A stretch of DNA of 64,000 nucleotides. It comes from a virus. Below, piece by piece: positions 6,461 through 23,518 of this stretch. The first letter of the stretch is position 1. Every line of letters starts with the position of its first letter. A program made the position numbers and the translations under genes. The notes beneath the pieces are model-generated. The model was not told the DNA's origin. It did not search any database and saw nothing but the letters and a program-made list of their open reading frames with translations. The DNA lies in IMG/VR virus record IMGVR_UViG_3300035099_000047, positions 62,001 to 126,000 of that record. One strand, given 5' to 3'.

Positions 6461-8155
6461 TTAGAACATGAGTACGTGATTAAACTGGAAAACCCAATCA
6501 CTCGACTTACTCAATGCTCCAAATGTTCTCCTCGCCACCAATGTGTTGTCTCCACACACCAATCCAGCCTCGCTGATAGCGAACCCATTAGCTTCCCCTT
6601 CCAAAATATAAGCAGTGATCAACACACTGGTTGTGCTTGGGAATTCAAACATAGTAATAGGTTTCACTAGCACTACAGTCTCCAATGCTGCATCATTCAC
6701 TGTAGGATTTACAGGTTCGCTAGGATCACCTGGTACATGGCCACCTGTGTTATGCACGAATACCCCAGCTGTCAACGCGAAATTGTGATATTTTTCCACT
6801 TCCAAACAGTACACATCTTCCACATAATCCAAGCGTTTCACTGAAACCACAGTGTGGTTATAAAAAGCTAAAGCTTCACTGGTTGGAGAGGAATGGACCA
6901 TTTTGCCAATTGATTTCAAATACCGAGATCCTTCATCCCATTGAGTGACCGGATCGAACCCATTTTCTATCAGCAGCTTTCTAGCAACAGCAATTTTTCC
7001 CACCATCTGCTTCCGGCGGGAGTCATTGTCTGAATTCACAAACAGAATGGTCTTTTTAGCAGCCATTCTGCTAGCTTTTGATTTACCCCGATTCATGTGG
7101 AAATTGGGATCTTTATTCAGTCTGGTCATCGTCAAAGAGGACCTTTTAGACCGTATCATCCTGGCGTTACGCGCTTGTGGGTTGTCAGAATTGTTAATCC
7201 ACTCGTTGTAATCTGAGATATTTTTAACACTAATTTCTTTCATTTTATCATAGTTTTCACTCCAACTTTTCAAGTTGCGAGCAGTAAGAATGCTGGAGGC
7301 ATTGTTCCTATGGAACGCCCTGTGAAAACACCTAAACAAAACGGTCAAATTCGTAGGATCGTTGTTCCTGTGGTCAAAGTTTTTGTGGTGCACCACAAGT
7401 TTGCAACCTTCACAACCATCGACATGGTTAGAAGTGCATCTAGCTCCCAATTCATGAACCACCATCCAATGAGTAGTCAACCATTTCATGGTTGCGGGAG
7501 ACAAAAAGACTTCGTACCCTTTGTTATCTTCCCTATACAACGGCATGAGACTGTCACCTGGGGACAGTGACTCTGCATTTTTATAAAAACCATCCCTCAT
7601 CATCCACGGGTGGTTTAACGTGCATCGAACCACCTTAATGTTCCCTAGATAATCTCGAATCGTGACTTCCACTAAATTAGCACCCTTTTGAGTTAAAAAA
7701 GGTCTTTTGGCTTTACCAGGCACGACTCTACCTCGTTTTACATCATAGGAATACACCCAAAACTCGTCGCGATAGTTTAGGAGTTCCTCAAAAGACCTCT
7801 CTGTACCATCCAACAATGATACTTTTGTATCTTTGGTAAAGCAACCAAAAGCCATTCGGCTCACGAACTTGGTTGCAGTGCTATCCCCCACAACTAAGTG
7901 ACTCAGTTGCGTCTTGAGCCGAGTCAAGGCCAAGTTGTTGCCTTTGTAAACTCGTTCAATTTTGCCATCTGGCACCTCAACTCGAACCCTCTCCAATTGC
8001 CCGGTTTCAGCATTGATACGAGTGACTTGTTGAGGCCGGTACGATCCTGCCCGTCGCACCAATATGGTTTGTTCACCATGGACTTCACTCACTACGGACT
8101 TGGTAAACATGGGATTGCTCCTTATTACAGATTGGTTAGCTTGTTGTTTGGTCAA
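6461..8155 (-). CDS. small tail/virion structural protein interrupted by an HNH intein
   Basis: The precursor is 564 aa. N-extein residues 1-104 and C-extein residues 470-564 splice to about 199 aa. The C-extein end (NGFAISEAGLVCGDNTLVA then RRTFGALSKSSDWVFQFN) matches a pattern I know from phage tail-associated structural proteins. The intein occupies residues 105-469, starting at Cys105 and ending VHN before Thr470. It lies at the downstream end of the tail-tip cluster, 9 nt after the radical SAM gene. Exact structural role unknown. Confidence 0.7.
   Translation of the reverse strand: MTKQQANQSVIRSNPMFTKSVVSEVHGEQTILVRRAGSYRPQQVTRINAETGQLERVRVEVPDGKIERVYKGNNLALTRLKTQLSHLVVGDSTATKFVSRMAFGCFTKDTKVSLLDGTERSFEELLNYRDEFWVYSYDVKRGRVVPGKAKRPFLTQKGANLVEVTIRDYLGNIKVVRCTLNHPWMMRDGFYKNAESLSPGDSLMPLYREDNKGYEVFLSPATMKWLTTHWMVVHELGARCTSNHVDGCEGCKLVVHHKNFDHRNNDPTNLTVLFRCFHRAFHRNNASSILTARNLKSWSENYDKMKEISVKNISDYNEWINNSDNPQARNARMIRSKRSSLTMTRLNKDPNFHMNRGKSKASRMAAKKTILFVNSDNDSRRKQMVGKIAVARKLLIENGFDPVTQWDEGSRYLKSIGKMVHSSPTSEALAFYNHTVVSVKRLDYVEDVYCLEVEKYHNFALTAGVFVHNTGGHVPGDPSEPVNPTVNDAALETVVLVKPITMFEFPSTTSVLITAYILEGEANGFAISEAGLVCGDNTLVARRTFGALSKSSDWVFQFNHVLMF
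6749..7843 (-). mobile_element. intein with HNH endonuclease domain
   Basis: Hint domain of about 365 residues. Block A begins CFTKDTKVSLLDGTER, block B has TLNHPWMM (TxxH) and the end is HNFALTAGVFVHN with the canonical penultimate His-Asn, followed by Thr as +1 nucleophile. The centre contains LVVHHKNFDHRNNDPTNL plus later paired histidines, the HNH fold seen in homing inteins, so it can probably move into intein-less alleles. Block sequences are close to those of the other three inteins here, indicating a shared recent ancestor. Confidence 0.85.
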
Positions 8156-8164: not shown

Positions 8165-10705
8165 TTAAGGCCCAACCGGGGTAGTTGGGCATGGTTGTTT
8201 ACCATCTTCTCTGACTAACGCCGTCACGGGTATGTTCTGAGACCAACGATGTACGGGTACCCCTGCTGGGTCGAGTTTGATTTCCGACCCCGGCAAATAG
8301 CTACACAGTTGGCAATTCTTGCCTCTCTGTTGAGACGGATCCTTGACGTACTTGGCTATGGTCTGCTTGGGCAGTTCGCTGAGGATGTGCAAGGCACTTT
8401 CAATCCAGAGACTTTTCAGCACACACTGAGCCGGATCTGGAGTATGGATGTCTCGACCAGATGCTAAACTGTCCTCGCGGCAATTCCCCACCACCACCCC
8501 AGCAGATAAAACAAAGTTGTGACAAGGATGGTCTATAACCACACAGTACACGTCTTGCTTTTCTTCCAACCATTTAACAGAAATCACTCTGTGGTTTACA
8601 AGGTGTCCATCCTTTCCCTTCTTGCTTTCATAAAAAGGCATCAAGCTATCCCCACACTTCAATTCACAAGATTTGGTCATAGTTCCATCCGACATCATCC
8701 ATTCATGATCTGGAGTACACTTGACTTTTTCACCATTGTCCAACCCCACTTCCATCAAGGGCATGTTCTCCCTAGTTTTTCTAACCTCTCCCTGAGTAAC
8801 TATGAATTCTTTCCACCCTGGATGATAAGAGTAAAACCATTGTTTACCCAAACCTACCAATTCCGCAATTGGGTGGTTTGTCCCATCTACCATTTTGACT
8901 CCAGTATCCCCAGTAAAACAACCAGAACCGCACACCCAACGGACGGGACATTTCATACAATCCTTGCGCTGATAACCACGGTTATCCAACCAAGGAGCTC
9001 TCAATTCCTCATCAATACCAGTAGACAAATCCCCGATTTTGGAATATCCCTCCCGATGGCATGCAAAAATCATACCTTTGCCGTTGACCGAAAGATAACC
9101 TCGACTCGCACCACAATTTCGTACAAACACTCCAGCAGTCAAGGCGAAATTGTGACAATCGTGTTGAATTTGAACGCAATACGTATCGTGGAGCCCTGTT
9201 ACAAATTTGACTGATATCACTTTGTGGTTGGATTGAACCACTTTACAGTATTTGGTATGGGTTACTTGACTCCCTTTGAAACAATCTGTACTCTCCTCAA
9301 GAACTTTCCCATACCATGGCATCAAGCTGTCACCCGGTTGCAATTGATCAGCCCGCTTGTAAGTGCCATCCCTCATCATCCATAGATGATCAGGAGTGCA
9401 CTTGACCCTTTGACCATTGTCCAATTCCACCTCCAACAAAGACCTACCTTCCCCGGTTTTCACTCCAACACCTTTGGTAGATATGATCTCTCCGTTACAA
9501 ACACTGTAAAACCAGTGCTCTTGACCTACAATGGACTCCAAAGTCCTCTCAGTACCATCCAACAAAGACACTTTGGTATCTCCTGAGAAGCACTCACTTG
9601 CACTATGGATACTCCAAAACATGCGTTCAATGCTCTTGTGTACGTTGTGCCAACGTGGAGTCTTATCTGCCTTAGCCCGTTCTATCCACCAATCAGCGGC
9701 ATCGAGGTATTCATCCTCAAATCGGTCCCATGCCTCCTCTTCCTTGATTTCCAATCCCCGGTTTTTCAAAGGACTATCATGGCTCAGGGCCACTGGTTCC
9801 ACGCTTACCCAATTTGCACAACCGTCATCGCACAACTGATTCAAGTAATCAAGCCGCTCCCGGATAGTTTCCACACTGTTAGCTGGAAACGTGCTGCGCA
9901 GGGTGTTGCTGCTAACTAGCCTGGTGCCCTTGAGCAGCTTCAAACCCTTCATTACCTTTTGCCAGCTGCTTCGTCCATTTGCATAGCGGCGCATATGGTC
10001 TTGGCTCTTTTGAGTCCCGTCTATGGAACAGATCAAGCTGTATCCATGATCATTTAGAAAAGCAACTCGTTCGGGAGTGAACAAGGTAGTATTTGTGGTA
10101 ACATGCAGTCCAGGCCTCTGCTTACCCAATCCCAAACAATTTTCACAAACGCTTCCCCCTACCCGACCAGATCCCCCGCAGGACCGACAAACCTGGCCGA
10201 ATTGCTTAGCCAAATGTTCCACATACTCTGTCACTTTGAGTATCAATGGCCAATTGGTCAAGGGCTCCCCCCCAAAGAACCCAACAGTAAAATGCTGGCG
10301 AACGTTTACCAAATCATCAATGGCCCGTTTGGCCATCTCAAAGGTCATTACATCTCCATCGTAGCCCTTATGTGGGTACATGCTCACAAAGCAATACTTG
10401 CACGACAAATTGCACGCATGTGTTGCTTCAAGGACCAAATTGCCCACCTTTGGTTCTGGTGCCCCTCCGGCACGAAACACTGGCTTATAACGTGCCATTA
10501 CATATGGGCTGGGTGGGTGATCCCTGAGTTGCAAGTAATCCTCAAACGAATCCACCTGCAACAATGCCAAACTGTTGCTATCAAATGCAAACTGTTTGTG
10601 TCGCTTTGGAATCTCAATGTAGATAAGCTCCGGTCGTTCATCCTCACGCAAGTCCTGGCAAGGTACACGGGGATTCAACAACCCGTTCAAAATGCGGTAA
10701 GCCAT
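8165..10705 (-). CDS. radical SAM/SPASM enzyme interrupted by two mini-inteins
   Basis: Precursor 846 aa, spliced form about 541 aa. The radical SAM [4Fe-4S] motif CNLSCKYC is at residues 98-105 and the SAM-binding GGEP at 145-148. Residues 173-194 carry two CxxCxGxG units (CRSCGGSG, CENCLGLG), a DnaJ-type zinc element not usual in this family. After splicing, all seven SPASM cysteines are present: C531, then G-x4-C549, CxxCx5CxxxC (583, 586, 592, 742) and a final C761. This layout is that of peptide/protein maturases (sactionine, anaerobic sulfatase and related enzymes). Its neighbours upstream encode three giant Cys-rich virion proteins, the obvious candidate substrates. Substrate and chemistry are inferred. 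Confidence 0.85.
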   Translation of the reverse strand: MAYRILNGLLNPRVPCQDLREDERPELIYIEIPKRHKQFAFDSNSLALLQVDSFEDYLQLRDHPPSPYVMARYKPVFRAGGAPEPKVGNLVLEATHACNLSCKYCFVSMYPHKGYDGDVMTFEMAKRAIDDLVNVRQHFTVGFFGGEPLTNWPLILKVTEYVEHLAKQFGQVCRSCGGSGRVGGSVCENCLGLGKQRPGLHVTTNTTLFTPERVAFLNDHGYSLICSIDGTQKSQDHMRRYANGRSSWQKVMKGLKLLKGTRLVSSNTLRSTFPANSVETIRERLDYLNQLCDDGCANWVSVEPVALSHDSPLKNRGLEIKEEEAWDRFEDEYLDAADWWIERAKADKTPRWHNVHKSIERMFWSIHSASECFSGDTKVSLLDGTERTLESIVGQEHWFYSVCNGEIISTKGVGVKTGEGRSLLEVELDNGQRVKCTPDHLWMMRDGTYKRADQLQPGDSLMPWYGKVLEESTDCFKGSQVTHTKYCKVVQSNHKVISVKFVTGLHDTYCVQIQHDCHNFALTAGVFVRNCGASRGYLSVNGKGMIFACHREGYSKIGDLSTGIDEELRAPWLDNRGYQRKDCMKCPVRWVCGSGCFTGDTGVKMVDGTNHPIAELVGLGKQWFYSYHPGWKEFIVTQGEVRKTRENMPLMEVGLDNGEKVKCTPDHEWMMSDGTMTKSCELKCGDSLMPFYESKKGKDGHLVNHRVISVKWLEEKQDVYCVVIDHPCHNFVLSAGVVVGNCREDSLASGRDIHTPDPAQCVLKSLWIESALHILSELPKQTIAKYVKDPSQQRGKNCQLCSYLPGSEIKLDPAGVPVHRWSQNIPVTALVREDGKQPCPTTPVGP
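8483..8920 (-). mobile_element. mini-intein B in the SPASM domain
   Basis: Residues 596-741 (146 aa), no endonuclease. Starts CFTGDTGVKMVDGT, block B TPDHEWMM, ends HNFVLSAGVVVGN. The penultimate residue is Gly instead of His. It is inserted inside CGSG|C so that the +1 nucleophile Cys742 is itself a SPASM cluster ligand. Confidence 0.85.
9116..9592 (-). mobile_element. mini-intein A in the SPASM domain
   Basis: Residues 372-530 (159 aa), no endonuclease. Starts CFSGDTKVSLLDGTER, block B TPDHLWMM, ends HNFALTAGVFVRN, with Arg in place of the penultimate His. The +1 residue Cys531 is the first SPASM cysteine (CGASRGY). Close similarity to intein B and to the full-size intein at 6749-7843 suggests duplication and loss of the nuclease. 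Confidence 0.85.
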
Positions 10706-10709
10706 TTTT

Positions 10710-11060
10710 TCAGTCTCCGGTCAATCCTATAGAAATCTCTTCTAAACGTGTAGCCAACCATCCGATGGCCGACAGGTACAATCCATCGGCCAGGGCATAC
10801 TTCGTAACGGGCAACCAATAGTGCAAGGCCAAACCAACCCAGAACGAACAGCACATCATACAGAAGGACCGAGTGCGTTGAGCTACATACAAACTTATCA
10901 GCTGATCTTTTAATCGGGTCGATTTCCAACTTCCCACCCACAGAACGAGCCTGTCAATCACCCAAAGCACTAAATAGCGGACAGGGAACGCAAGACTTGA
11001 TCGCGAGAGTATGACGACAATCCCCAACCCGACGAGCGTTGAGCTAGTGAGATGATCCAT
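10710..11060 (-). CDS. small membrane protein, 116 aa
   Basis: Hydrophobic segments at about residues 7-40 (SSTLVGLGIVVILS and FPVRYLVLWVIDRLVLWVG) and 64-85 (FCMMCCSFWVGLALHYWL) indicate two to three membrane helices. It ends 4 nt before the radical SAM gene and its first 91 nt overlap the end of the gene at 10970-11311. The large overlap makes either the start or one of the two genes uncertain. A holin-like role cannot be excluded but lacks specific support. Confidence 0.5.
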   Translation of the reverse strand: MDHLTSSTLVGLGIVVILSRSSLAFPVRYLVLWVIDRLVLWVGSWKSTRLKDQLISLYVAQRTRSFCMMCCSFWVGLALHYWLPVTKYALADGLYLSAIGWLATRLEEISIGLTGD

Positions 11061-11311
11061 GGTTCTTTATGCTCCAAGGCTTCGGCCTTTTGACAACGCA
11101 GGCAATCATACATTCTAGCGGGTTCATGACCATACCGACTACAAAGAAATACTCGGCCTCCATCAGCCCGACAACAAGGTGATCTAGTGGTTCTACCCGT
11201 GTCAATACGATAGTTGCAATGGAATACCAGTTCCTTCAACCGGTTGCGCAACACTTCGTTTTGAGCAATGTTGAGCCCTGGCAACAGTTCTCGATTACGG
11301 TGAAGTCTCAT
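10970..11311 (-). CDS. small cysteine-containing protein, 113 aa
   Basis: Starts with an ATGA overlap on the Cys-rich protein gene upstream. Cysteine groups PCCRADGG, FLCSRYGHEPARMYDCLRC fit a zinc ribbon. Lying between a Cys-repeat protein and the radical SAM enzyme, it might assist that system, for example as a partner or iron-sulfur accessory, but nothing in the sequence proves this. The last 30 residues overlap the next gene's start. Confidence 0.5.
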   Translation of the reverse strand: MRLHRNRELLPGLNIAQNEVLRNRLKELVFHCNYRIDTGRTTRSPCCRADGGRVFLCSRYGHEPARMYDCLRCQKAEALEHKEPWIISLAQRSSGWGLSSYSRDQVLRSLSAI

Positions 11312-13692
11312 GCCACTATCCCACTAGCGCACCCAACACCTTGACATTGGGATTCGCAAGGCACTGATTCACATACAGTTTCACAAGGTTGTTCCCTTCC
11401 TTCTTCACAACACAACTGGCAACAGAACTCGCAACCTCCCTGCTTATTGGCTACACAACCCGCTTCACAAATGGCCTCACAACCACCTTGGGCTTCGCAG
11501 GCCGCTTGGCACTGAGTTTGACATTTGTCAGTACAGCTAGCGGTGCAACCACTTGTGCAACTGGCTTTGCAAACGCATTCACAACACACTTGACAGCCTC
11601 CCGGTGCACCGGTGCAGCTGGTCTGACAACCAGCAGTGGCTGTGCATTTTATTTGGCACCCAGCCACCATGCAAGGTTCCTGGCAAATAGCCATACACTC
11701 ACTTTGGCACCCTCCAGTGCATCCACTGGTGCAACCTACGATAGCACAAAGCGTTTGACACCCACTGCTTTGACATGGGTTTTGACATATCGTCATGCAA
11801 CCTTCCATGCACTGGCCACCCTGACAACCCACTGTACAATTCTTCTGACAATCGGTTTCGCAGCTTTGACATCCCTCACTCTCGCACTTTGATGCCTCAC
11901 ACCAACTTTCACAATGACCTCCTTCGCAAGATCCCTTCTCGCAAAAATCTTCACAACCCCCTTCACAACTGCCTTTTTCACACCAGCTTTCGCAATAAAT
12001 TGCACATTGAAACTGACAACCACCTACCTCACAATCGTTTTCACAGCTACCAGCTTCACATTGCAGTTCACACCCTGCAGCTTCGCAACCTTCTTCACAC
12101 CCTATCTCGCAACCCTCTTCGCATCCACACACACACGAATCTTGGCAGCATGCTTCGCAATCAGTTTCACAATTGTTTTGGCAAGCACTCTGGCAGTTGA
12201 ACTCACAATCGTTTTGACATCCAGTCGTGCAGAAATCTTCACAATTGCCTTCACAACTGCCTGTACAACCATATTCGCAATCACCTTCACAACCATTTTC
12301 GCAAAATGTTTGACAATTAGCTCCCTCACAAGTATCCTGGCAATAATTCTGACATTTGTTCTCACAACTGCCTGCACACGCTTCTTGGCAGACGAACTCG
12401 CAATCCGTTTGACAGTGAATCTCACACATCAACTCACAATTTGATTCGCAGGAGCCCAAACCTTGACACTTGTCTTCGCAACCCTTCTCACAAAAGCTTT
12501 CACAAGTGACTTGACACCCTTGAGTGCACGTGGTGATGGTTTCCAACCGGTCGCTAGCCCCGGTCAACAACTCCCGAAACCTGCTCCGCATGGAAACGCC
12601 ACTGTAAGAATCCGTTACTTCAATAGCAACTTCTCTCTTGGACATCAACTGCAACTTGCGAACCGGTATCACATGAATGGGTCGCTCGTCGGCCAAGTAC
12701 TGGTCCAACACAGCCATAGCCTCAGCAAAAGGCAAAGCCTCTCCAATACCTGGATACTTTGTTTCAACCTCCTTCAGATAGGAATTGGTTTGGTGGTAAC
12801 AAGTACGAACCCCGGACAACAAAGCATTTGTAGCATGTGCCTTTTCTACTAACACACTCAATAACGAGTTGGTTGAATGATACTGAGTGCTTTCACCCTT
12901 CAAATCAGCATCGGTGCTATGAGAAACCCTTGTAGAATATAACAGGGCATCTGTCGTGTGACTTTCAGTGATTTCACGAGCACTAAGAAAAGCATCTGTT
13001 GTGTGAGATCTGGTTGACTTTTTAAGGTAAGCATCTGTGGTATGTGTTTTGGTTACAGCTAATCCTTTGATATAAGCATCGGTATTATGGCCAATAGTGA
13101 TAACGTCTGGACTGATCACCTCATACTCTATTGCAACCTGGAGGTCATCATATTGTGTTTCCAGTGTTACTTCTGTTGTACCGCTCCACGTCGGATCAGT
13201 TACACAGTTGACCCAATTGCGAATCGAAAGGCCAATGCGATTCCACGCACCACCAGGGATTTCAGAAGGAAGGGGCTTCAGCCCTCCCCCTCCAATGGTC
13301 CACCAACCATATGTTCGGCCATAAATATCTAAACCAACAAGAAGTTGCTGTGCTTCATCTTCCGTATCCTGCCAAAGGTAAACATTTCCTACCCTATAAA
13401 GTTTAGACGAACAAAGTGGGAAGTCGTCAGCAATCGGAGCCCTCACAGCCAACCCAACAACACTGATTGCAGTGACAACACTATTTTTTGGGATACCAAA
13501 CAACTGGCTCCATGTCCCCAATACACGCCACCCTTCGGAGCCAGTTATATTACCCCGACCTTCCAAATCCATGTGCGTGGTAAGGGACCCTTGCGAGAGA
13601 TTACCATTGTACGACCACCCGCCCCTGGCAGTTGGCTCCCAACTCTCAGGGTCGTTTTCCCAACGCCACCATTTGGTTATTCTAATAGCCAC
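11308..13692 (-). CDS. Cys-repeat virion protein with jellyroll-like head, 794 aa
   Basis: Residues 1 to about 190 form a beta-rich domain (WRVLGTWSQLFGIPKNSVV) that is paralogous to an internal domain of the protein at 17387-21499. Residues about 195-310 hold eight copies of a short repeat, core HTTDAxLK, known from other phage tail fibres. From about residue 390 to the end the chain is a tetrad repeat with Cys every fourth residue, typically C-Q/E-x-x, interrupted by short Gly-rich spacers. No signal peptide. Position in the tail operon suggests a tail-tip adhesin. Likely substrate of the radical SAM enzyme encoded just downstream (inference). Confidence 0.7.
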   Translation of the reverse strand: MAIRITKWWRWENDPESWEPTARGGWSYNGNLSQGSLTTHMDLEGRGNITGSEGWRVLGTWSQLFGIPKNSVVTAISVVGLAVRAPIADDFPLCSSKLYRVGNVYLWQDTEDEAQQLLVGLDIYGRTYGWWTIGGGGLKPLPSEIPGGAWNRIGLSIRNWVNCVTDPTWSGTTEVTLETQYDDLQVAIEYEVISPDVITIGHNTDAYIKGLAVTKTHTTDAYLKKSTRSHTTDAFLSAREITESHTTDALLYSTRVSHSTDADLKGESTQYHSTNSLLSVLVEKAHATNALLSGVRTCYHQTNSYLKEVETKYPGIGEALPFAEAMAVLDQYLADERPIHVIPVRKLQLMSKREVAIEVTDSYSGVSMRSRFRELLTGASDRLETITTCTQGCQVTCESFCEKGCEDKCQGLGSCESNCELMCEIHCQTDCEFVCQEACAGSCENKCQNYCQDTCEGANCQTFCENGCEGDCEYGCTGSCEGNCEDFCTTGCQNDCEFNCQSACQNNCETDCEACCQDSCVCGCEEGCEIGCEEGCEAAGCELQCEAGSCENDCEVGGCQFQCAIYCESWCEKGSCEGGCEDFCEKGSCEGGHCESWCEASKCESEGCQSCETDCQKNCTVGCQGGQCMEGCMTICQNPCQSSGCQTLCAIVGCTSGCTGGCQSECMAICQEPCMVAGCQIKCTATAGCQTSCTGAPGGCQVCCECVCKASCTSGCTASCTDKCQTQCQAACEAQGGCEAICEAGCVANKQGGCEFCCQLCCEEGREQPCETVCESVPCESQCQGVGCASGIVA

Positions 13693-13706
13693 TTACACCA
13701 TCCCCA

Positions 13707-15221
13707 CTAAAAATTAGGGAACACAGCCACTCTTGCGGCTTTGTAAGTGTGTGTACCATTTTTATTCAAACTGTAATCCCCCATTTCGTTAGGTTCGTGC
13801 TTGTACAATTCGGAGACTGAATACTTACCATCTGAACGGTACTTCAACTTCTTATTGATCCCAAACACGGTACCATGCATTTTGTGAAAAGCCAAAGCAT
13901 CAGAGGTGAAAAATCGTATCAAATCATCTGTCCATCCATCATAATAGCTACTCCCCAACAGCTGATTGATAAGGGTCAGATATTCTGTATTGGTAGTGAC
14001 TACATTGTACAGGGCCTTCAATCCGGCTATCAACTCCTCGGTTTCCCCAAATTGTTCCTGTAACATACCCACAATCTGTTTCAAAATAGGCCCCCCTGAT
14101 ACATCCCCAGAAGCCTCCGCATCCTTTATGCGAATAATCAAAGGTAACAAATCATACAACTGGACCCGGGGCCAACGGCCTAGATAGGCTGCAGTGCGAT
14201 GGTACCTGCGTACCTCCCCCTTCAAGTCCGCATCGGCGGTATGCTTTTTCAATTGAAACTTTTGCAAAAGGGCGTCAGCACTGTGAACCTTAGTAATACT
14301 CCAAACCAAATAGCTGCTTGAAAAATGATAATTGGTAACTTCGCCCTTCAAAACTGCATTTGTACAGTGTAATTTTCGACCACCTAATATCAAGGCATCA
14401 GTTGTATGCAATAGAGAAATGGTTTCAGTAGGTGATGCCCAACTCAACCGGCGTGGCATTGCCCAAAGATCAAAGCGCGTGGCTGGATTGTAAAGCGTCC
14501 AGATTTCCGCCGCCGAAAGGGCACGCCCGTAAACCCGCACGTCACGCACCAGACCTCGCCAGAACATCTCGTACGAGCCGTAGTTCAAGGCCCCGACGAA
14601 TCCGTAGTTGCTGGACCACGTATCCGTGGGCATTTGCGCGAGCGTCTTTGAGTTTTTCAACCGTCCGTCGACGTACAGCGACCAGGCGGAATTGTCGAGA
14701 ACGGCCGCAACGTGGTGCCAAACCCCGTCGTTATGCGCGCTCGTCGCAACCAGATTAGTGTCCCATACGCTTATGCCGAGAGCGCCCGGCGGCTGCCACC
14801 GGTCGGTGTTGCCAGCACCAATAATGACCGCGTAGTGTTGGGATGTTACCCCGTAAGAAAACGCCCCGCGGATGTACTCCGACGGACATTCCGTGTAGTT
14901 GACCCAGAGCGAAATCGTTCGCGGCGATGCCCCGAGGGGGAGGCGGGTATCGGGAAAGCGGAACTGATAACTGCCGTCGAATTCCGGCACGAAGCCAAAC
15001 GTGGGATCCGCGTGCCATTTTGCCACCTCCGGCACCATGCTTATGTCAACTGCCCTGCCGTGATTGTCATAAACAATCTCCGGCGCGACACTGCCCGTGC
15101 ATGCCGAGAGCGGCCACCAGGCAATAAGACTGCGTGATTGCAGCGATTCTTGCCGGACTTGCGGTATTCTTGGAGACAACAGGTTGGCGCGGGCCATTGG
15201 GCGGTCCGAGATGACTCCCAT
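13707..15221 (-). CDS. LamG-domain tail protein with gpI-like C-terminus, 504 aa
   Basis: Residues about 27-245 form a LamG/concanavalin-type jellyroll (SLIAWWPLSACTG, GVWHHVAAVLDNSAWSLYVDG, ALSAAEIWTLYNP), a carbohydrate-binding fold. Residues 260-345 carry HTTDA-type repeats. From VQLYDLLPLIIRIKDAEASG to the end it matches the start of the 1370-residue protein, a P2 gpI-like tail domain that links fibres to the baseplate. The LamG-coding DNA (about 14440-15220) is visibly GC-richer than its surroundings, a sign of recent acquisition. Probably a receptor-binding tail protein. Confidence 0.75.
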   Translation of the reverse strand: MGVISDRPMARANLLSPRIPQVRQESLQSRSLIAWWPLSACTGSVAPEIVYDNHGRAVDISMVPEVAKWHADPTFGFVPEFDGSYQFRFPDTRLPLGASPRTISLWVNYTECPSEYIRGAFSYGVTSQHYAVIIGAGNTDRWQPPGALGISVWDTNLVATSAHNDGVWHHVAAVLDNSAWSLYVDGRLKNSKTLAQMPTDTWSSNYGFVGALNYGSYEMFWRGLVRDVRVYGRALSAAEIWTLYNPATRFDLWAMPRRLSWASPTETISLLHTTDALILGGRKLHCTNAVLKGEVTNYHFSSSYLVWSITKVHSADALLQKFQLKKHTADADLKGEVRRYHRTAAYLGRWPRVQLYDLLPLIIRIKDAEASGDVSGGPILKQIVGMLQEQFGETEELIAGLKALYNVVTTNTEYLTLINQLLGSSYYDGWTDDLIRFFTSDALAFHKMHGTVFGINKKLKYRSDGKYSVSELYKHEPNEMGDYSLNKNGTHTYKAARVAVFPNF

Positions 15222-15239
15222 CCATTCCTCCTACCAAAT

Positions 15240-15746
15240 TCAAACGACGTCTTCAGCCAGTGGTACCAAGGTAATGCGATGTGAATCGTCATTGCTTACC
15301 AAAGCCTGTCCCGACTTATTGATGACTACAGGGCAACCATAACGGGCAGGGGGACAAAACTCGAAGACCTCGGTTTGGACCACAGTAGCAGCATCTGCTG
15401 TGAGCACCAGGCAGCCAATAAGCAAAAGCTGTTGCTTCCATTCATCTTCTTCCCCAGCCTTGTAAGGGGAATCCACACCGGTGACTCCACCAGGAAAGGT
15501 TGTGTTATCCCACGAGGCTGCCCAATAAATCTCAATCACGTTGCCAGCCACTGGGGCAACAGCCAGGTTCAATTCGACAGTGACCGCCCAGCGCGGGGCG
15601 AACCGCCCGTTGGCATCCGCCAGATCGCCTTTCTGACCCATCCGCCCGGCCCCGTTGGCCAAGCCAGCCAGGGTGATCGCGTAGTCTCCTCCCGTGGCCT
15701 TCCAAACCTTTGCAGTTCCTTGTTTAACCAGTATTTCTGTAGACAT
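15240..15746 (-). CDS. phage structural protein (tail-fibre associated), 168 aa
   Basis: Contains GNVIEIYWAASWDNTTFPGGVTG, LIGCLVLTADA and YGCPVVINKSGQAL, a pattern I recognise from small virion proteins lying next to fibre genes in many phages, of unknown precise role. No Cys tetrads. It sits between the LamG protein and another small structural gene in the adhesin cluster. Confidence 0.6.
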   Translation of the reverse strand: MSTEILVKQGTAKVWKATGGDYAITLAGLANGAGRMGQKGDLADANGRFAPRWAVTVELNLAVAPVAGNVIEIYWAASWDNTTFPGGVTGVDSPYKAGEEDEWKQQLLLIGCLVLTADAATVVQTEVFEFCPPARYGCPVVINKSGQALVSNDDSHRITLVPLAEDVV

Positions 15747-15781
15747 AGCTCAAACCCAAGGGTTAAAAGTTGAAAGTTGGT

Positions 15782-16210
15782 TCACAAAGAAAGCTTGATA
15801 ATCCCGCTAGCACTCCACTGCAACACAAAGTTTTGGGCCTTCCGGCTCTTCACCATTCCAAAGCCTATGTGACCTATCAGAGGTGAGTCTGCTGGGGTGG
15901 TAACCAGCCGGTACAATACAGCATGAGCGGGGGACACAGTCACCACTGGCCAAATAACATCATCTGCGTCAAACACGCAAGTACCAGCAACTTTGTCCAA
16001 AGTAAAACTACCATTCCTCAACCGTACCCCTCCCGCTGTATAATTGGTACCTGTCACTTCATCGGTTACTATGTCCGACCAATAAACTTGGTTTTTGTAA
16101 TCTGGTATGTATTTGTCACTGAGCAGTGCACACTTGATTATGTTGTTGACCAGCGATATTTGACCATTGGCCATCGCTTTCAAATAATTCAAGAACAATC
16201 CGCAGGTCAT
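15782..16210 (-). CDS. phage structural protein (tail-associated), 142 aa
   Basis: The ATG at 16210 is chosen because AAAGGGGAAGC precedes it; a longer frame would overlap the Cys-repeat gene. The sequence (LYRLVTTPADSPLIGHIGFG and TCVFDADDVIWPVVT) matches a common small phage virion protein that tracks with fibre genes. Beta-rich, soluble, no Cys tetrads. Confidence 0.6.
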   Translation of the reverse strand: MTCGLFLNYLKAMANGQISLVNNIIKCALLSDKYIPDYKNQVYWSDIVTDEVTGTNYTAGGVRLRNGSFTLDKVAGTCVFDADDVIWPVVTVSPAHAVLYRLVTTPADSPLIGHIGFGMVKSRKAQNFVLQWSASGIIKLSL

Positions 16211-16221
16211 AGCTTCCCCTT

Positions 16222-17370
16222 TCACACCTGTTGCTGTTGTTGGCATCGACCTTGACAACCATACTCACAGGCATTCTGACATTCGGTCTCACAAGCAGCT
16301 TGGCATCCTATAGCACAAGCTGTAGTGCAAGTGAGTTGTTGACCTGCTTGGCACTTTTGCTCACAGGCGTAAGCACATCCCGGTATTTGATTTCCTGATT
16401 GACATTTTTGTTCACATTTGGTAGTACAACCCCCTGTTTGAGCTCCCGTTTGACATGATTTTTCACATTGATTTTCACACGAAGTTTCACACGAAGCCTC
16501 ACACCCTCGACGAGGGACTTGATAACTAACTTGGCACACCGTGTTGCAACCAGGGGACTGTCGATGGCTTTGACAAGAAACCTGGCAAGATCTTACACAA
16601 CCTGGCACCTGCCCACTGGCCTCGCAATTAGATTGACAAACACTATCACATCCCAAAAATTGAAGCTTGGATTGGCATTTGGTTTCACATTGCCCCTGAC
16701 AACCCCCTTCGCAGTGGGTTTCACACCTAGCCGTGCAGTTACGTGCCTGATTACCTTGTTGACAACTGACTTCACAAATCTGTTGGCAATCGTATTCACA
16801 AGCTACTTGACATTTATCAGTACACCCCGGGGTTTGGTACCCTTGAGTACAACTCAATTCGCAACTTGTACCACAGCCTGCAGTTTGACTCCCTGATTGA
16901 CAAGTCACCTCACAAGTGTCAGAACAACCAGGGGTTTGACTGCCTTTTTGACAGGTGGTTTGACAAGTGTCTGAGCAGCCGACTGATTGACTCCCTGATT
17001 GGCAAGAAACTTGGCAACGGTCTTGGCAACCTGATTGGCAAGTTGTTTCACACTTCGTGGAGCACCCTTGAGCTTGGTGACCTGCTTGGCAATGAAGTTC
17101 ACACAGGGTCTGACACCCAGATTGACACACCAATTGACAATGAGATTCACAACTGCTTTGGCAAGTGACTTCGCAAGTGGTACCACATCCGGCTACCTGG
17201 TTCCCTGCTTGGCATACGTTTTCGCACAGGTTTTGACAATTAGCTTGGCAAGTCTGTTCGCACTTCGTTTGGCACCCCGCTTGACACCTCAATTCACAAG
17301 CTGAAGTGCAACCAGCGGCTTGATACCCAGCTTGGCAACCCACTTGGCAAGTTTCAGTGCAACCTGGCAT
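16222..17370 (-). CDS. pure Cys-tetrad-repeat protein, 382 aa
   Basis: The whole chain is repeat: runs of C-x3-C with Q or E after most Cys (for example CEVTCQSSCESHC), broken by the spacer x-x-G-x-Q-x-x-G-C. By my count about 75 of 382 residues are Cys. No globular domain, signal peptide or membrane segment. A good ribosome site (GGTAGGAG) precedes the ATG. It lies 16 nt downstream of the 1370-residue Cys-repeat gene. This many thiols would require extensive disulfides, metal/Fe-S binding or enzymatic crosslinking; the radical SAM enzyme in the same cluster makes the last option attractive. I know of no characterised relative. Confidence 0.7.
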   Translation of the reverse strand: MPGCTETCQVGCQAGYQAAGCTSACELRCQAGCQTKCEQTCQANCQNLCENVCQAGNQVAGCGTTCEVTCQSSCESHCQLVCQSGCQTLCELHCQAGHQAQGCSTKCETTCQSGCQDRCQVSCQSGSQSVGCSDTCQTTCQKGSQTPGCSDTCEVTCQSGSQTAGCGTSCELSCTQGYQTPGCTDKCQVACEYDCQQICEVSCQQGNQARNCTARCETHCEGGCQGQCETKCQSKLQFLGCDSVCQSNCEASGQVPGCVRSCQVSCQSHRQSPGCNTVCQVSYQVPRRGCEASCETSCENQCEKSCQTGAQTGGCTTKCEQKCQSGNQIPGCAYACEQKCQAGQQLTCTTACAIGCQAACETECQNACEYGCQGRCQQQQQV

Positions 17371-17386
17371 TTTCAGCTCCTACCTT

Positions 17387-20300
17387 TTAGACAGAAGGCT
17401 GAGCGTAAACCTGACAACCTGCAACTTGACAGTTTAACTGACAACCAGTTGCTTCACAAGCAATCTGACATTGTAGTTGACACACAGCCTCGCAAACTGA
17501 TTGACACCGCTCGGAGCACCCAACCACTTGGGCTATAGGTTCACAACCAGATTGGCAACTGCCTCCCTGGCAAAGCGTAGTACAACCACTTACTTGATTC
17601 CAAGCTTCACAAGCAGTATGGCAATCGGTTTCTCTACGAGTTTCACAAGCTGCAGCTTGACAAGTGAGTTCACAAAGCGCCTGGCAATCATATTGACAGA
17701 CAATTTTACATGGAATGTCGCCAGTTCCACTCTCCAAACCCCCAACTTGACAAGCTACTTGACATTGGCTTATGCAATCCCTAAACTGCTTCCATGTTTC
17801 ACAATAGTTTACACAAGAGAACTGGTTTTGAGTCTGACAAGTCACAACTTGACAAGAACCCTGATAAGAGGTGAGGCAGCCAGTGTAGTCAGTTTGAGAT
17901 TGGCTCTGACAAGTTCCACTTTGACACACGGGTTGGCACCAGGATTGACAAGTTGTTTCACAAGGCTCTCCTGTAGGATATTGTGCAACCCACAAACTCC
18001 CTCCATATTGATAGTACGTTTGACAATGTTTCTGACAAGTTGTTTGGCAGTCCAGTTGACAGCTGCCCATGCACTCACCTACTTGGGCCTCCCCTTGACA
18101 AAACCTTTGACATACATTTTCACATTCATACTGGCAATCAGTCATACAAGTAGTTTCACAACTTGTACTAACACAACTTGAGTATTGGCTCAGGGTCTGG
18201 CAAGGAGCCATTTGGCACTTGGTCTGGCAAGTCCGAGAACATCCCAGTTGGGTTCGAGTTTCACAAGAATTAGCTTGACAATTATATTGACAACTTTGCT
18301 GACAACGTGAACCGCAAGGCGAAACTTGAACATCACCACAACCCAATGCTGCCCAAAGTTCCTGACAATCGGATTCACAATGGGTTTCACAATAAGTGGT
18401 ACACGGACCTTCGTAATGAGTTTGGCAATCATCTTGACAGTGGTATTCACAATGGGAAGCGCAACCCGTTTCGCATTCAGTTTCACACGAGGCTTGGCAT
18501 TTAGTGGTGCACCCCGTGGTTTTGGGGGTTTGATACCGAACTTCTAATGTCAAGTTATTGTATCCTATGCGGGCGTGCCCACCAGTCTGGCTCAAATGGA
18601 ACAAGCTTTGTAGCATAAATTCCACTGAATCGGTAGCTCCCCCTAACCCTTCAGAAATCCCGTGGATGCTTCCGGGATTCATGTAAAGCCAATCATTTTC
18701 TACTCCAAAGACCCTCCTACCCCACCACAAAATTGATGGAATAGCTGTATTACAATTCACTCCGGCTGCCCCATATTGAACAAAATCCTGAACTCCTACG
18801 TTATCCCATATCAAGCATCGAGTATTCATGCCAATAAATCGAACCCCTACCACCGTGGCATTGTCTGGTATACCAAATATCTCCTTCCAAGAGCCTACCA
18901 ATCTCCAGGTAATTGTAGTCTCAAATGGCATGCGGTATGGTTTGTCATCCCTGTACAATTCACTGTAAATGTAGCCAGAGGGGTCCCAACCCCCAATACG
19001 GGTACTCAGTTCCCCAGCGAGATACCATTTCCCGGATCCACTGGTTTCCCTAGGATCAGTTGTAAAATTCCAGGAACGCTCCGCTCGCAATGTAATCTTG
19101 GGTATATCCGCTTGATTAGCTGAGGTACAACCAGTAGTGCAATCAGAATGGCAACCTACCGTACAATCTGTAGTACATCCACCAGTACAACTTAGCTGAC
19201 AAGTACCGCCCTCACAAGTCTGAGTACCTGCTGTGCAACCACCAGTACATCCACCAGTACACCAGCTAGTACACCCACTTGTGCAAGGGTAATCCAAGTG
19301 CTGAATCTGGCAACCAGTAGTGCAAGCTTCCTGACAAATCAATTGGCAAGTGGTCTCGCATATCGTGGGCTCCAACATATGGGTAGTCACTGACCATTGT
19401 TCTGCTATTTGGTCCCCCAACTTCTTGCGGCCTACTCGTTTACTCAACAGCAAATAGAACACCTGACTGCGATGGGGTATTTTCAATGAGTTGTGTGCAT
19501 AGACATACAGATGGGGTACCAACGGGCTCCAACCAATTAGCTGCTCCCCCGTAGGGGCATATCGGTAGTCCCGATCGTACAACATCAAGTGGGTAATCTC
19601 ACCCAAATTCACATCCGGAGCGCTGAATACAATCTGACCGTAATTGCGAAATGCACTAACGATGGTGCCTGGCACGCTGTTCGGATCTATACCTGCTTCA
19701 ACTAAGAAGTCCAGGGCTTCATCCAAACTCACCCGGGCCCAAGCATTATGGGGTTCCCGATGATAACCACTTGCAGTCTTGGGCTCATTTACTGGGAGTT
19801 CTCCATACCAACCGCAAAAGCTGCGACTCATAGCCACAAAGGTACCACTAGTGCTACTGCCTGGATGCCAGCTAGTGGTAAAGTTAACAGTTGGACTGGT
19901 ACCAGAAATGAAATCCACCTCTTGCGATGAAGGACTAAAAGTCAAGGGTGGATAGTCATACCACAAGGGCATCACGGTATAGTGGCCCGGTGGCACAACC
20001 ATATTTGCCAAGCCTTCTCTGTTCGTAACCCCCCAGTAAGCAACAGGATGACCATTGGAATCTTCCCCATAAATCACCACCTCAACATTGGCTACCTGAG
20101 CTCCGGTCATGACCACTGAAGGGGAGGCATGTGGATCAGAGGTACTTGGAGGGGTAGAATGAGGTAACTCCATTGTCAGGTTGCAAGGACCATAAGTCGT
20201 GGTAATCGTTTGGCTGATTGTTTGACAAGTTTCAGCCGTGGTCAGGCACCCCTTGGTCTCATCTGGGTTTGGGCTACCCCACATGCCTTGATAACCAGTT

Positions 20301-21499
20301 GGCGGAGATCCGCATTCTGCTGCACTAGAACAAGTGCCCCCTGGTGGAGTGCAACCAGATAGTTGAGCGGGGGTTTGGCAGGCTAATTCACAAGCGTCCT
20401 GACAAGAGTACTGAATGCTGGTTTGGCAATGGGCTTGACAGTAACCCTTGCAAGTTTCCTCATAACTTTGACAAGTACCTTGACAGTGTTGCTGACACTG
20501 CTGCCGACAGGAACTTTGACAAGAGCTTTGGCAGGTATCCTGACAATAACTTTGACATGGGTCTTCGCAACCCTGTTCACAAGCCTCTTGGCAAAAGAAC
20601 ATGCAAGCGTTTTGACATTTATGTTCACACCGAGCTTGGCATACTGGTTCACAGGAGCTTTTGCAACTTAATTCGCACAAAGCAGCGCATTTGGTCTGAC
20701 AACTTAGCTGACATGCTCCAGTGCAAGTAAGAGTGAGTGATTCATCATCTGCTATGAGATTGGATGGTTCTTCGTCGAACAAAGCAACCATTCTGCTACC
20801 ATCCGCCCCATCGCAGGTTTCCTTAACCCAGTCGGGGTAGTCTTCAGTGCATATCGGTACCGGCGGCAACACCTGAATTGGCACCACCTCTTGCAAATCG
20901 TGAACCAAAGACAATGCATCTGGATAGCTAAGCTGACCAGGCACCAGCCCGGAATGGTTTGTACATCGTAGATCAACAGGACCCTCCCATGGCAACACAG
21001 ACTCTAACACTGCCCCCATACGGAGGCCATATGGAATACTGCTAGTAAACAACACTCGAGCAGCACGGTAAGGGTGGCTTAGGGACTGACTGGCCGAATA
21101 ATCCACCGTTTCATTCAAACTACCTTTGTACAACTCCACTGGGTTGTAATTACCCAGTCCCTTCAACTTCATCATCCTGATCCAGCTTAACACCAATCCC
21201 TTGATCTTGTAGCTGTTCACCAACTCCTTGGCATACTCCCTTTGGTGGAACAGAGGTAGTTCCTGGGGGCTCTCACTACCCAATGCCTTGGTCAACAAGG
21301 CCAATATCAGAGAGCTAGTGGATTCCAAATTGATCAATCCCCGCAGACCTTCGATCAAGCCTGCAGTGGAATCTATTTGTTCTTGGATCGCAGCCAGAAT
21401 CTGCTGCAAGATAGGGCCACCGGGGAGATCGCCAGAGGCATCAGAGTCCTTCTGGCGTAGAACCAGGGGTAGCAGATCATATGCACCGATCTTGGTCAT
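17387..21499 (-). CDS. giant tail protein: gpI-like domain plus three Cys-tetrad blocks, 1370 aa
   Basis: Residues 1-180 match the P2 gpI-like tail domain also found at the C-terminus of the LamG protein (AYDLLPLVLRQKDSDASGD). Cys-tetrad block 1 spans about 259-390. An Ig/SdrD-like domain follows (EVVIYGEDSNGHPVAYWGV), then a second globular domain, then Cys block 2 (about 705-790, CTSGCTSWCTGGC). A jellyroll like that of the 794-residue protein comes next (WRLVGSWKEIFGIPDNATVV) and a third Cys block runs from about 985 to the end. Position directly after the J-like baseplate gene fits a tail-fibre connector/adhesin. Likely the central fibre of the cluster. Confidence 0.72.
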   Translation of the reverse strand: MTKIGAYDLLPLVLRQKDSDASGDLPGGPILQQILAAIQEQIDSTAGLIEGLRGLINLESTSSLILALLTKALGSESPQELPLFHQREYAKELVNSYKIKGLVLSWIRMMKLKGLGNYNPVELYKGSLNETVDYSASQSLSHPYRAARVLFTSSIPYGLRMGAVLESVLPWEGPVDLRCTNHSGLVPGQLSYPDALSLVHDLQEVVPIQVLPPVPICTEDYPDWVKETCDGADGSRMVALFDEEPSNLIADDESLTLTCTGACQLSCQTKCAALCELSCKSSCEPVCQARCEHKCQNACMFFCQEACEQGCEDPCQSYCQDTCQSSCQSSCRQQCQQHCQGTCQSYEETCKGYCQAHCQTSIQYSCQDACELACQTPAQLSGCTPPGGTCSSAAECGSPPTGYQGMWGSPNPDETKGCLTTAETCQTISQTITTTYGPCNLTMELPHSTPPSTSDPHASPSVVMTGAQVANVEVVIYGEDSNGHPVAYWGVTNREGLANMVVPPGHYTVMPLWYDYPPLTFSPSSQEVDFISGTSPTVNFTTSWHPGSSTSGTFVAMSRSFCGWYGELPVNEPKTASGYHREPHNAWARVSLDEALDFLVEAGIDPNSVPGTIVSAFRNYGQIVFSAPDVNLGEITHLMLYDRDYRYAPTGEQLIGWSPLVPHLYVYAHNSLKIPHRSQVFYLLLSKRVGRKKLGDQIAEQWSVTTHMLEPTICETTCQLICQEACTTGCQIQHLDYPCTSGCTSWCTGGCTGGCTAGTQTCEGGTCQLSCTGGCTTDCTVGCHSDCTTGCTSANQADIPKITLRAERSWNFTTDPRETSGSGKWYLAGELSTRIGGWDPSGYIYSELYRDDKPYRMPFETTITWRLVGSWKEIFGIPDNATVVGVRFIGMNTRCLIWDNVGVQDFVQYGAAGVNCNTAIPSILWWGRRVFGVENDWLYMNPGSIHGISEGLGGATDSVEFMLQSLFHLSQTGGHARIGYNNLTLEVRYQTPKTTGCTTKCQASCETECETGCASHCEYHCQDDCQTHYEGPCTTYCETHCESDCQELWAALGCGDVQVSPCGSRCQQSCQYNCQANSCETRTQLGCSRTCQTKCQMAPCQTLSQYSSCVSTSCETTCMTDCQYECENVCQRFCQGEAQVGECMGSCQLDCQTTCQKHCQTYYQYGGSLWVAQYPTGEPCETTCQSWCQPVCQSGTCQSQSQTDYTGCLTSYQGSCQVVTCQTQNQFSCVNYCETWKQFRDCISQCQVACQVGGLESGTGDIPCKIVCQYDCQALCELTCQAAACETRRETDCHTACEAWNQVSGCTTLCQGGSCQSGCEPIAQVVGCSERCQSVCEAVCQLQCQIACEATGCQLNCQVAGCQVYAQPSV

Positions 21500-21508: not shown

Positions 21509-23518
21509 CTAGTCACTAAGCAGATCTACTATAAAAGTCCCCGGTACGACCAACTGGTTCTTTTCTACTGGTATGTCCCCAGCCACCACGCTCAGCAACT
21601 GCGTATAGTTGGTGGCAATGCTAGTTTCAGCACTAGGGGCATTGGTAAACGTAAACTCATAGGCTCCGGTTTCATAATCAATCACAGCCACCTTGGTATC
21701 ATCTTTATTTCCAACCAAACGACCATGACCGTCATCTGTTACCACTTGAACTCCATCAGTAAAAGCCACAGTGTTTTTGATCAACGGAGGGTAAGTGAGT
21801 TTGCCCGTGAAGGTGCGGGTAATGCCATTAGTCGTAGCAATATCAGTTTCATTGCGTAGGTACTGCAATGGGTAGCGGTACTCAATTTTAATCTCAGCAT
21901 TCAGTGGTACCGCTTCTCTCAAGGTGAAATTCAAATCCCCAGTGGCATAATCCACCGTGTTCTCAGCCGTAGGATCCACATCCCCAATCAAACGCCCATC
22001 TCCGTTGTCTGTAATCACCAAAGTGTCAGCCTTAATGGTAATGCTACTAGGGCGGGGCACTTGCTGAGTGGTGTAATCAAACTGAGTAGTATGTCCGTCT
22101 GACAATCCAATCAATTCAGTTTTCTTGTAGGTAGCGGTCACAAGCCGTACCAAACTGTGCTCCACCCCGCTAGAGGCCTGTATAGTGCTGTAAAGCTTGC
22201 TCATGCGTACAGCCGTGCCAGGCTGATTACTTGGGTTGTTTAACAACGCCGTTAGGGCATAGTTGACATTGGTCAAAGTTTCGCTATTGCTTAGAAGGCC
22301 GTTTGGCACCACCCCTACATCCAGATCCAAGTACACTATGTTACCGTCCAACACATCCACATCTACGGTAATGATACGCACTGCTCCAGTGCCGTTGTTG
22401 TTAAAATAGGCAGATACTGCGTTTTTCAAGCCTTCGCTGGGAGGTACTATGTTACCCAATTCATTTCGTGCCCACAAGTATAAGTCTACAAGGTTGCTCT
22501 CTGGTACATTTTGATGAAGTTGTGCCTTGGCGTGAGACGGAGCACCGTAAATGGGATCTTTGAAGGTAGAAGCCAAGGTATCAAAATCAGATTCTGTAAC
22601 TGCGCGGCCGTTGGCCACCACCGATTTCGGGGCCCAAAACTTAGCGTGGTCAATTGTTTCTTTTTCTTCACCACCGCTACCACGTTCATTGTTGTACAGA
22701 GCCACGTCTACTGTTTGAATTGGCATGGTACCACTCAAGTTACCTGGTACCGATACATCAATATCCCCAATAGGCACATTGCCAACCACTCCGCCTCCTA
22801 TACGATAACTACATGAAATGGTAGCATTCTTGGTAGGTATTTGACCGCTGGTGCCGTCCCCAAATTTCACGTATCCATAGTCATCCACATCGGTGCGTAC
22901 ACTGTAACTTTGGTCCACTCCACTGCTGTAAACCAACGATTCTACTTCGTCCCAAGCGAAGCCATCTACAGTTACACTCAAGCTACCATCAATCAACGGA
23001 GTGCTGGAGAGCTTGAACTCTTGAAATGCGGTACCATCGCTAGTGAATTCATCAGTAACAGTTAGCCCTTGGACAAAAGTAAGATCCGCTGTCAAGTGAC
23101 CAGCCGGTATGGTTTGGTCCGTTAGACTTTCAAACTTGACTCCCGTTACACTGCTGATTTCCGTGTGTGCAGGTATCACGGTGTCATAGGTTTGAATAGA
23201 TGGAAGAGTAGCCGTGAGAAGGACTGAGGCGCTAGTAGCTGGCCGAAGGTTATACCCTATGAGCCTGCAGAGCAAAATCACACTTTCTCGATCTTTGGCT
23301 GTAGGGAGGAATTGTTCGTTGCAATAAGTGTCTATCATGAAGGAAAGGGAATCAAACGTAAATGCAACTAGCTCCATTAGGCAGGTCCCAATTGAGCTTT
23401 CAGTAAAGTCTTTCCATGTATTGGGAAACCTGGCCCGAATGTTGGCCTGAAGCGCAGCAAGTATCGTGGAATAGTCTTGATTTGTATAGTCTATTGCAGG
23501 AGTAGTGGTCATCCTCAC
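21509..23518 (-). CDS. baseplate wedge protein, J/gp6-like, 669 aa
   Basis: N-terminal YTNQDYSTILAALQANIRARFPN and SFMIDTYCNEQFLPTA, then RLIGYNLRPATSASV, are characteristic of Baseplate_J family proteins. The C-terminal part has two copies of a small beta domain with the signature DNGDGRLIGDVDPTAENTVDYATG; a similar domain is inserted in the major capsid protein. Builds the baseplate ring that carries the fibres. Overlaps the gp25-like gene by 4 nt. Confidence 0.88.
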   Translation of the reverse strand: MRMTTTPAIDYTNQDYSTILAALQANIRARFPNTWKDFTESSIGTCLMELVAFTFDSLSFMIDTYCNEQFLPTAKDRESVILLCRLIGYNLRPATSASVLLTATLPSIQTYDTVIPAHTEISSVTGVKFESLTDQTIPAGHLTADLTFVQGLTVTDEFTSDGTAFQEFKLSSTPLIDGSLSVTVDGFAWDEVESLVYSSGVDQSYSVRTDVDDYGYVKFGDGTSGQIPTKNATISCSYRIGGGVVGNVPIGDIDVSVPGNLSGTMPIQTVDVALYNNERGSGGEEKETIDHAKFWAPKSVVANGRAVTESDFDTLASTFKDPIYGAPSHAKAQLHQNVPESNLVDLYLWARNELGNIVPPSEGLKNAVSAYFNNNGTGAVRIITVDVDVLDGNIVYLDLDVGVVPNGLLSNSETLTNVNYALTALLNNPSNQPGTAVRMSKLYSTIQASSGVEHSLVRLVTATYKKTELIGLSDGHTTQFDYTTQQVPRPSSITIKADTLVITDNGDGRLIGDVDPTAENTVDYATGDLNFTLREAVPLNAEIKIEYRYPLQYLRNETDIATTNGITRTFTGKLTYPPLIKNTVAFTDGVQVVTDDGHGRLVGNKDDTKVAVIDYETGAYEFTFTNAPSAETSIATNYTQLLSVVAGDIPVEKNQLVVPGTFIVDLLSD

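Follow-up and report, generated by a model that had tools for sequence, protein, structure and literature searches.

The locus analysed here raises the question of why a phage should encode a radical SAM/SPASM enzyme downstream of, and in the same direction as, three large proteins in which cysteine recurs mostly at every fourth residue. The window, i.e. the whole stretch of 64,000 nucleotides that was analysed, is part of a 172 kb uncultivated virus record, and the original prediction, made from its letters, had proposed that the enzyme crosslinks the phage's own tail proteins by radical chemistry. As a whole, this reading is partly supported: judging from sequence, the radical SAM/SPASM protein is quite probably a phage-encoded maturase of the phage's own baseplate or tail-fibre proteins, in which it would form C-x4-[QE] thioethers. 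Going beyond that prediction, the analysis pointed to a likely acceptor, the Gln or Glu at +5, and to inteins within the enzyme. On the minus strand, the order of transcription is gp25-like gene, gpJ-like wedge gene, Cys protein C, Cys protein B, two small genes, Laminin-G protein, Cys protein A, two small genes, radical SAM/SPASM gene and intein-bearing gene. The features concerned are:

27187-30306: tape measure
23515..23925, minus strand: baseplate wedge protein, gp25-like (phrog_43, E 1.5e-15)
21509..23518, minus strand: baseplate wedge protein, gpJ-like, immediately preceding the genes of the Cys proteins (phrog_219, E 3.8e-40)
17387..21499, minus strand: Cys-tetrad protein C, with an N-terminal gpI-like domain and several Cys arrays (126 Cys in 1370 aa; 98 with a predicted acceptor)
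16222..17370, minus strand: Cys-tetrad protein B, consisting almost entirely of array (75 Cys in 382 aa; 73 with a predicted acceptor)
13707..15221, minus strand: Laminin-G-like protein with a C-terminal Tail_P2_I (gpI)-like domain (PF13385, E 2.5e-21; PF09684, E 4.2e-4, at the cut-off)
11308..13692, minus strand: Cys-tetrad protein A, with HTTDA-type repeats, the RPIHVIPVRK gpI-end motif and then a Cys array (102 Cys in 794 aa; 68 with a predicted acceptor)
8165..10705, minus strand: radical SAM/SPASM enzyme, CteB/PapB/QhpD-like, 846 aa as precursor and 541 aa when spliced (PF04055, E 9.2e-16)
6461..8155, minus strand: gene just downstream of the radical SAM gene, interrupted at 6749-7843 by a third intein, which is related to the other two and has an HNH endonuclease (PF14890, E 6.2e-17; phrog_7545; phrog_5417)

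The assignment of the Cys proteins to the tail, already made in the original prediction, agrees with the two wedge genes upstream and with the tape measure gene, and this setting supports their being part of a baseplate/fibre module. The gpI domain (PF09684), borderline in the Laminin-G protein of the window, is clear in the Cys proteins of relatives (E 1.6e-11 and 5.4e-7). As for protein C, its N-terminus has no Pfam match of its own and is alignable to the gpI-type proteins of relatives and to the window Laminin-G protein. The latter, encoded between Cys proteins A and B, carries no Cys array. Among the relatives, gp25- and gpJ-like genes stand before the arrays in L320, L332 and L334, and a gp25-like gene in L326; L328 and L336 have a tape measure gene in that place, so that the system is not confined to a single kind of tailed phage. 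The gpI-like domain of the window appears to be split between 11308-13692 and 13707-15221, with its RPIHV end in the downstream gene, and HTTDAYLK/HSADALL-type repeats are found in both.

The three Cys-tetrad proteins together contain 303 Cys, about 239 of which have a predicted acceptor (C-x4-[QE]). A spacing of four is dominant, as had been noticed at the outset (64, 59 and 82 Cys intervals in A, B and C, respectively), and the residue following Cys is mostly Gln or Glu. The numbers of CxxxC pairs (71, 59 and 82) compare with shuffled means of 12.9, 14.5 and 11.4 and lie above all of 500 shuffles, while C[QE]xx units with distinct DNA amount to 71 of 71 in A, 57 of 58 in B and 79 of 81 in C. 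Taken together, the excess over shuffles and the distinct DNA of the tetrads indicate selection on the protein rather than a young DNA repeat. An artefact of DNA tandem repetition was also considered and is ruled out by the distinct DNA of nearly every unit. The AlphaFold model of array protein B has a pLDDT of 54 and is uninformative.

Concerning the enzyme, the motifs on which the original prediction relied are all present in 8165-10705, the SPASM set being complete once two overlooked inteins are removed:

10391..10414, minus strand: CX3CX2C radical SAM cluster motif, CNLSCKYC
10262..10273, minus strand: GGEP SAM-binding motif
8423..9115, minus strand: SPASM domain cysteines (seven-Cys set), interrupted by intein 2
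9098-9115, 9050-9067 and 8948-8959, minus strand: first three SPASM motifs, CGASRG, FACHRE and CMKC, respectively
8921-8938, 8471-8482 and 8423-8434, minus strand: last three SPASM motifs, WVCGSG, CRED and PAQC, respectively
9116..9592, minus strand: intein 1, 159 aa, without endonuclease domain, directly before the SPASM Cys of CGASRG (PF14890, TIGR01445)
8483..8920, minus strand: intein 2, 146 aa, without endonuclease domain, directly before the SPASM Cys of CRED

The cluster motif, GGEP and the seven-Cys SPASM set place the protein among the radical SAM/SPASM enzymes; the seven SPASM Cys are all kept in the spliced form and do not vary across 19 relatives (alignment A2). Both inteins (55% identical to each other) possess the N- and C-terminal splicing blocks, with junctions that run C...N and then, across the splice point, C (PF14890, TIGR01445). 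In each case, the extein nucleophile Cys is an Fe-S ligand Cys of the SPASM domain. Since the inteins lie directly before ligand Cys, this domain could not form without splicing. Apart from the third intein, in the neighbouring gene, a search of the whole record gave further intein matches, one at about 45236-46690 in the window and one outside it, and the occurrence of related inteins in two neighbouring genes and beyond is possibly the outcome of a recent spread within one phage. Two features close to the enzyme are also to be mentioned. A DnaJ-like CRSCGGSG...CENC zinc-ribbon insertion is found in the radical SAM core of the window enzyme (10136-10189), and none of the other rows of alignment A1 has it. 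Just upstream of the radical SAM gene, small proteins with a C-x9..15-C-x10..13-C-x2-C pattern are encoded in the window (10970-11311), L322 (9260-9781), L334 (9477-9938) and L379 (8942-9439), and they are possible Fe-S or zinc accessory proteins.

In a quick tree, the window enzyme falls into a clade of 21 rows, together with 20 other radical SAM proteins (SH-aLRT 99). As the sole query of a sequence search, the spliced window enzyme retrieved no viral relatives, an alignment being required instead. A PDB profile search with the enzyme family placed CteB first (E 1.3e-77), and an intein-free relative, modelled with AlphaFold (pLDDT 88.6, pTM 0.90), matched CteB along its length (TM 0.71-0.80; 5wgg_A, E 5.5e-25, 458 columns), so that a CteB-like fold, including the N-terminal recognition domain, is seen in this model of a family member; anSME and ChlB match the family fold too. 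For all 19 relatives, the best NCBIfam models are SCIFF, PapB, ScfB-related, Nif11 and QhpD. The intein-free relative L326 stays below the curated cut-offs of PapB (199 of 340 bits), SCIFF (195.6 of 425) and QhpD (177 of 453), and its score against the anSME model (87 bits) is well below all three; the window enzyme scores lower than L326 because of its inteins. The match to TIGR04115, with a cut-off of 350 bits, is only 62 bits for the window protein and 78 for L326, and phrog_1802 matches the radical SAM core of the window enzyme. These comparisons support the view that the enzyme is nearest to thioether-forming SPASM maturases.

The CteB/SCIFF (thermocellin) maturases (PDB 5WGG, TIGR03974) share with the phage family the closest PDB sequence and fold, the N-terminal recognition domain and the seven-Cys SPASM domain, although the phage enzyme forms a separate clade below the SCIFF equivalog cut-off. 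The SCIFF link was published as Cys32-Thr37, which spans five residues, as does the C-x4-[QE] bond proposed for the phage, but Thr34 was later found in co-expression and the position is disputed (PMC8172795, PMC8326336). In SCIFF systems, the substrate is a peptide in which 45 residues include six Cys, whereas in the phage family it would be a giant tail protein, the Cys of which number up to 191; none of the window proteins (382-1370 aa, 75-126 Cys) is of the SCIFF precursor type. As for PapB (NF047865), the best NCBIfam model for L326, it makes several links, which join Cys with C-beta of Asp or C-gamma of Glu, in line or nested, and tolerates n = 0-6 (PMC9413430), yet it does so in a small precursor at a CX3D motif, in contrast to C-x4-[QE]. 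QhpD (TIGR03906, the quinohemoprotein amine dehydrogenase maturase) forms Cys-Glu/Asp methylene thioethers in a protein (PMC8172795, PMC8326336) and thus resembles the phage enzyme in having a protein rather than a small RiPP as substrate, but these are three crosslinks in an enzyme subunit, compared to dozens to about 190 Cys in the phage structural proteins. TIGR04115 is a named radical SAM family with a target described as a CXXX-repeat peptide, against which the phage family scores low; no description of it in a phage tail context was found. A radical SAM domain is known in phages from phrog_1802 and other proteins, as here, and the open-access literature yielded no link between these and Cys-array tail proteins, nor Gln as acceptor among the ranthipeptide cases covered.

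The residue rule was examined in 143 isolated Cys runs from 44 loci, in two independently found sets (by array pattern and by enzyme). At the first Cys of a run, Gln or Glu stands at +1 in 18 of 99 cases in the array-found set and in 4 of 44 in the set found by the radical SAM enzyme, with a background of 8-9%, while at later Cys it does so in 1081 of 1179 and 252 of 300 cases, respectively (84-92%). After the last Cys, it is found at +5, with no Cys preceding, in 77 of 95 and 29 of 42 cases (69-81%). Most other offsets are near background, the exceptions being +6 in the enzyme-found set (10 of 42) and -4 in the window, the latter being where the Gln of the preceding run falls. Counted per locus, 29 are for this coupling, none against and six tied, and the difference between the Gln/Glu frequency at +5 of the last Cys and at +1 of the first has a bootstrap 95% interval of 0.50 to 0.71. 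As the first Cys lacks a following Gln/Glu, later ones have it and +5 is kept after the last, the Gln/Glu belongs to the Cys five residues upstream. Such a pattern suggests the trace that would be expected of a donor Cys paired with an acceptor Gln/Glu at i+5, and the bond itself is probably a thioether from the Cys sulfur to this residue. Where neighbouring Cys are 3 or 5 apart, the Gln/Glu moves with the next Cys to +4 or +6 (57 of 67 and 65 of 79 cases, respectively), which gives a span of 4-6 and a spacing that is not rigid; also, not all Cys have an acceptor, as the count for protein A illustrates. Glu and Gln share the acceptor position (582 vs. 499 in the array-found set, 145 vs. 107 in the enzyme-found set), and their commonest replacements at inner sites are Thr and Met. 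All four residues have a C-gamma, a hint that this may be the acceptor carbon.

An alternative is that the enzyme performs another radical SAM chemistry on the arrays, such as alpha-carbon (sactionine) bonds, C-C links, formylglycine formation or epimerisation, the Gln/Glu being a recognition or structural residue. SPASM radical SAM enzymes perform all of these reactions, the family fold is matched by anSME and ChlB as well, and some related arrays carry Ser or Gly in place of Gln/Glu (L309, L311). This alternative is nevertheless unlikely, given that the top NCBIfam models are makers of non-alpha thioethers, far ahead of anSME, that the Gln/Glu frequency is tied to the Cys five residues upstream, as for a donor-acceptor pair, and that the near-equal split between Glu and Gln fits side-chain methylene chemistry. 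As to the arrays just mentioned, L309 and L311 are large-phage contigs, in which Cys-tetrad proteins with Gly/Ser after Cys lie beside radical SAM proteins of other types; a different acceptor chemistry is perhaps at work there.

The recurrence of the pair in other phages, for which the original prediction had called, was followed in collections that are metagenomic and fragmentary. IMG/VR was scanned for C[QE]xx arrays, a general 8xCys pattern having given mostly simple repeats and wrong frames, and contigs of high tetrad diversity were kept by an entropy cut (n = 27 among the matches listed; the odd locus L217 was left out by eye, and L181 and L203 are near-copies). Among the matches listed, PF04055 was found in 22 of these 27 contigs (20 over the cut-off) vs. 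none of 34 control records with low-complexity CXXX repeats, which are unlike the test contigs in more than one respect. In most of the pair-bearing contigs listed, the radical SAM gene is adjacent to and co-directional with the array. Concerning the contigs without a PF04055 match, the arrays of G015, G020 and G023 extend to one end of the contig, on the side on which the enzyme ought to lie, and in G018, a fragment of 17 kb, the array is found at the edge. Beside the array of G008 there is an ORF that contains CSGGCVYC and is rich in Cys at its C-terminus; by eye, it looks like a divergent radical SAM protein without Pfam match. Cys-repeat proteins were therefore not found widely without the enzyme, most matchless contigs being short fragments cut beside the array. 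A CSGGCVYC protein with a Cys-rich C-terminus, of divergent radical SAM appearance and without Pfam match, was observed beside a Cys array in L301 (13216-14778).

The reverse search, with an alignment of enzymes, recovered arrays at most of the near loci among the matches listed. In the window clade of 21 rows, arrays are present in the fetched stretch at 15 loci, short C-[QE] runs were seen in L331, L337 and L339, and the records of L319, L321 and L329 are cut upstream. L344, L353, L361 and L365 have their arrays elsewhere in the record, and at a few related radical SAM loci, e.g. L350 (a long record), no array was seen. A second phage radical SAM lineage likewise sits with arrays, and the pair recurs in more than 30 loci, dozens of unrelated, uncultivated phages being among its carriers. 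Of 80 bacterial loci listed, only the two nearest have arrays (L379, an SZUA-421 MAG, and L380, a planctomycete MAG); none was found near the other 78 relatives, many of which are SCIFF maturases of Clostridia. In INPHARED, no enzyme match exceeded about 33% identity. Those fecal scaffolds that were inspected carry radical SAM proteins that by motif look like SCIFF maturases, with no arrays in the stretch examined, and an array search with the low-complexity filter on gave no match. A Cys-rich substrate encoded next to a maturase-like enzyme is the arrangement of ranthipeptides, and the enzyme and the Cys-array tail proteins very probably stand in a dedicated enzyme-substrate relation.

The same evidence bears on the possibility that the arrays are self-folding disulfide or metal/Fe-S scaffolds and that the radical SAM enzyme acts on something else. 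Dense, regular Cys could indeed ligate metals or form disulfides, and a repeat fold could impose the Cys-Gln/Glu coupling as a rule of packing; however, the recurrent adjacency with radical SAM proteins of more than one lineage, the contrast between diverse-array contigs and controls among the matches listed, and the lack of arrays near the 78 bacterial relatives make this reading decidedly improbable. Other adhesive proteins are known to contain internal Cys-Gln thioesters, and spontaneous thioester or isopeptide bonds might likewise form in the arrays without an enzyme. This is very improbable, and the thioester was rejected, as the acceptor position holds Glu as often as Gln and a Glu thioester would not self-form; the presence of the enzyme would, moreover, be left unexplained. 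That a low-complexity gene and a radical SAM gene unrelated to it lie together by chance, which a single contig could not have excluded, is a practically negligible possibility in view of the distinct DNA of nearly every unit, the spacing far above shuffles and the more than 30 loci.

Under the preferred reading, i.e. maturation by Cys-Gln/Glu thioethers, protein splicing would remove the two inteins and complete the SPASM domain. The N-terminal recognition domain of the enzyme would then bind the substrates, probably at the gpI-like or another conserved non-array region, and the enzyme would act repeatedly along each Cys array. A 5'-deoxyadenosyl radical would abstract a hydrogen from the Gln/Glu side chain, most likely at C-gamma, and the Cys that lies five residues earlier would attach its sulfur to that carbon, giving a C-x4-[QE] thioether with the loss of 2 H (-2.016 Da). 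Since every CQ or CE dipeptide would accept the bond of the preceding Cys and at the same time provide the donor for the following acceptor, the matured array should be a continuous chain of fused small macrocycles, presumably stiff and not undone by reduction. We infer that the crosslinked proteins are present in virions. In the open-access literature, no description was found of the maturation of virus particles by a radical enzyme. With moderate confidence, we favour the broader view that this mode is widespread, phage ranthisynthase-like enzymes introducing tens to hundreds of Cys-Gln/Glu (i to i+5) thioethers into fused-macrocycle fibres unlike known protein polymers. If true, this would be a genetically encoded, highly crosslinked protein polymer, and the C-x4-[QE] bond rule makes one specific prediction, with very many natural substrates to compare. 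Radical SAM maturases of this type are possible protein-stapling tools, and array maturation may explain the role of some unassigned phage radical SAM proteins.

Two further observations concern the relatives. Just downstream of the radical SAM gene, a protein starting with LREAGGxGD is encoded in L320, L321, L324, L326, L328, L330, L332-L334, L336 and L340. It belongs to Glycosyltransferase family 9 in L334 and L332, is just under the cut-off in L320, and is often followed by a family 2 glycosyltransferase gene; the tail proteins of these phages may be glycosylated as well. The record of the window phage lacks PF01075, so the glycosyltransferase pair of the relatives is not an obligatory partner. 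Finally, Phage Phass-1 (L471, OQ749652; code 15) encodes at 5932-7710 a radical SAM protein that shares 33% identity with the second phage lineage. A short ORF rich in Cys, which is unannotated, comes next (CNTCNVGCDIQCRTC), and the two are maybe a minimal pair in a named complete phage.
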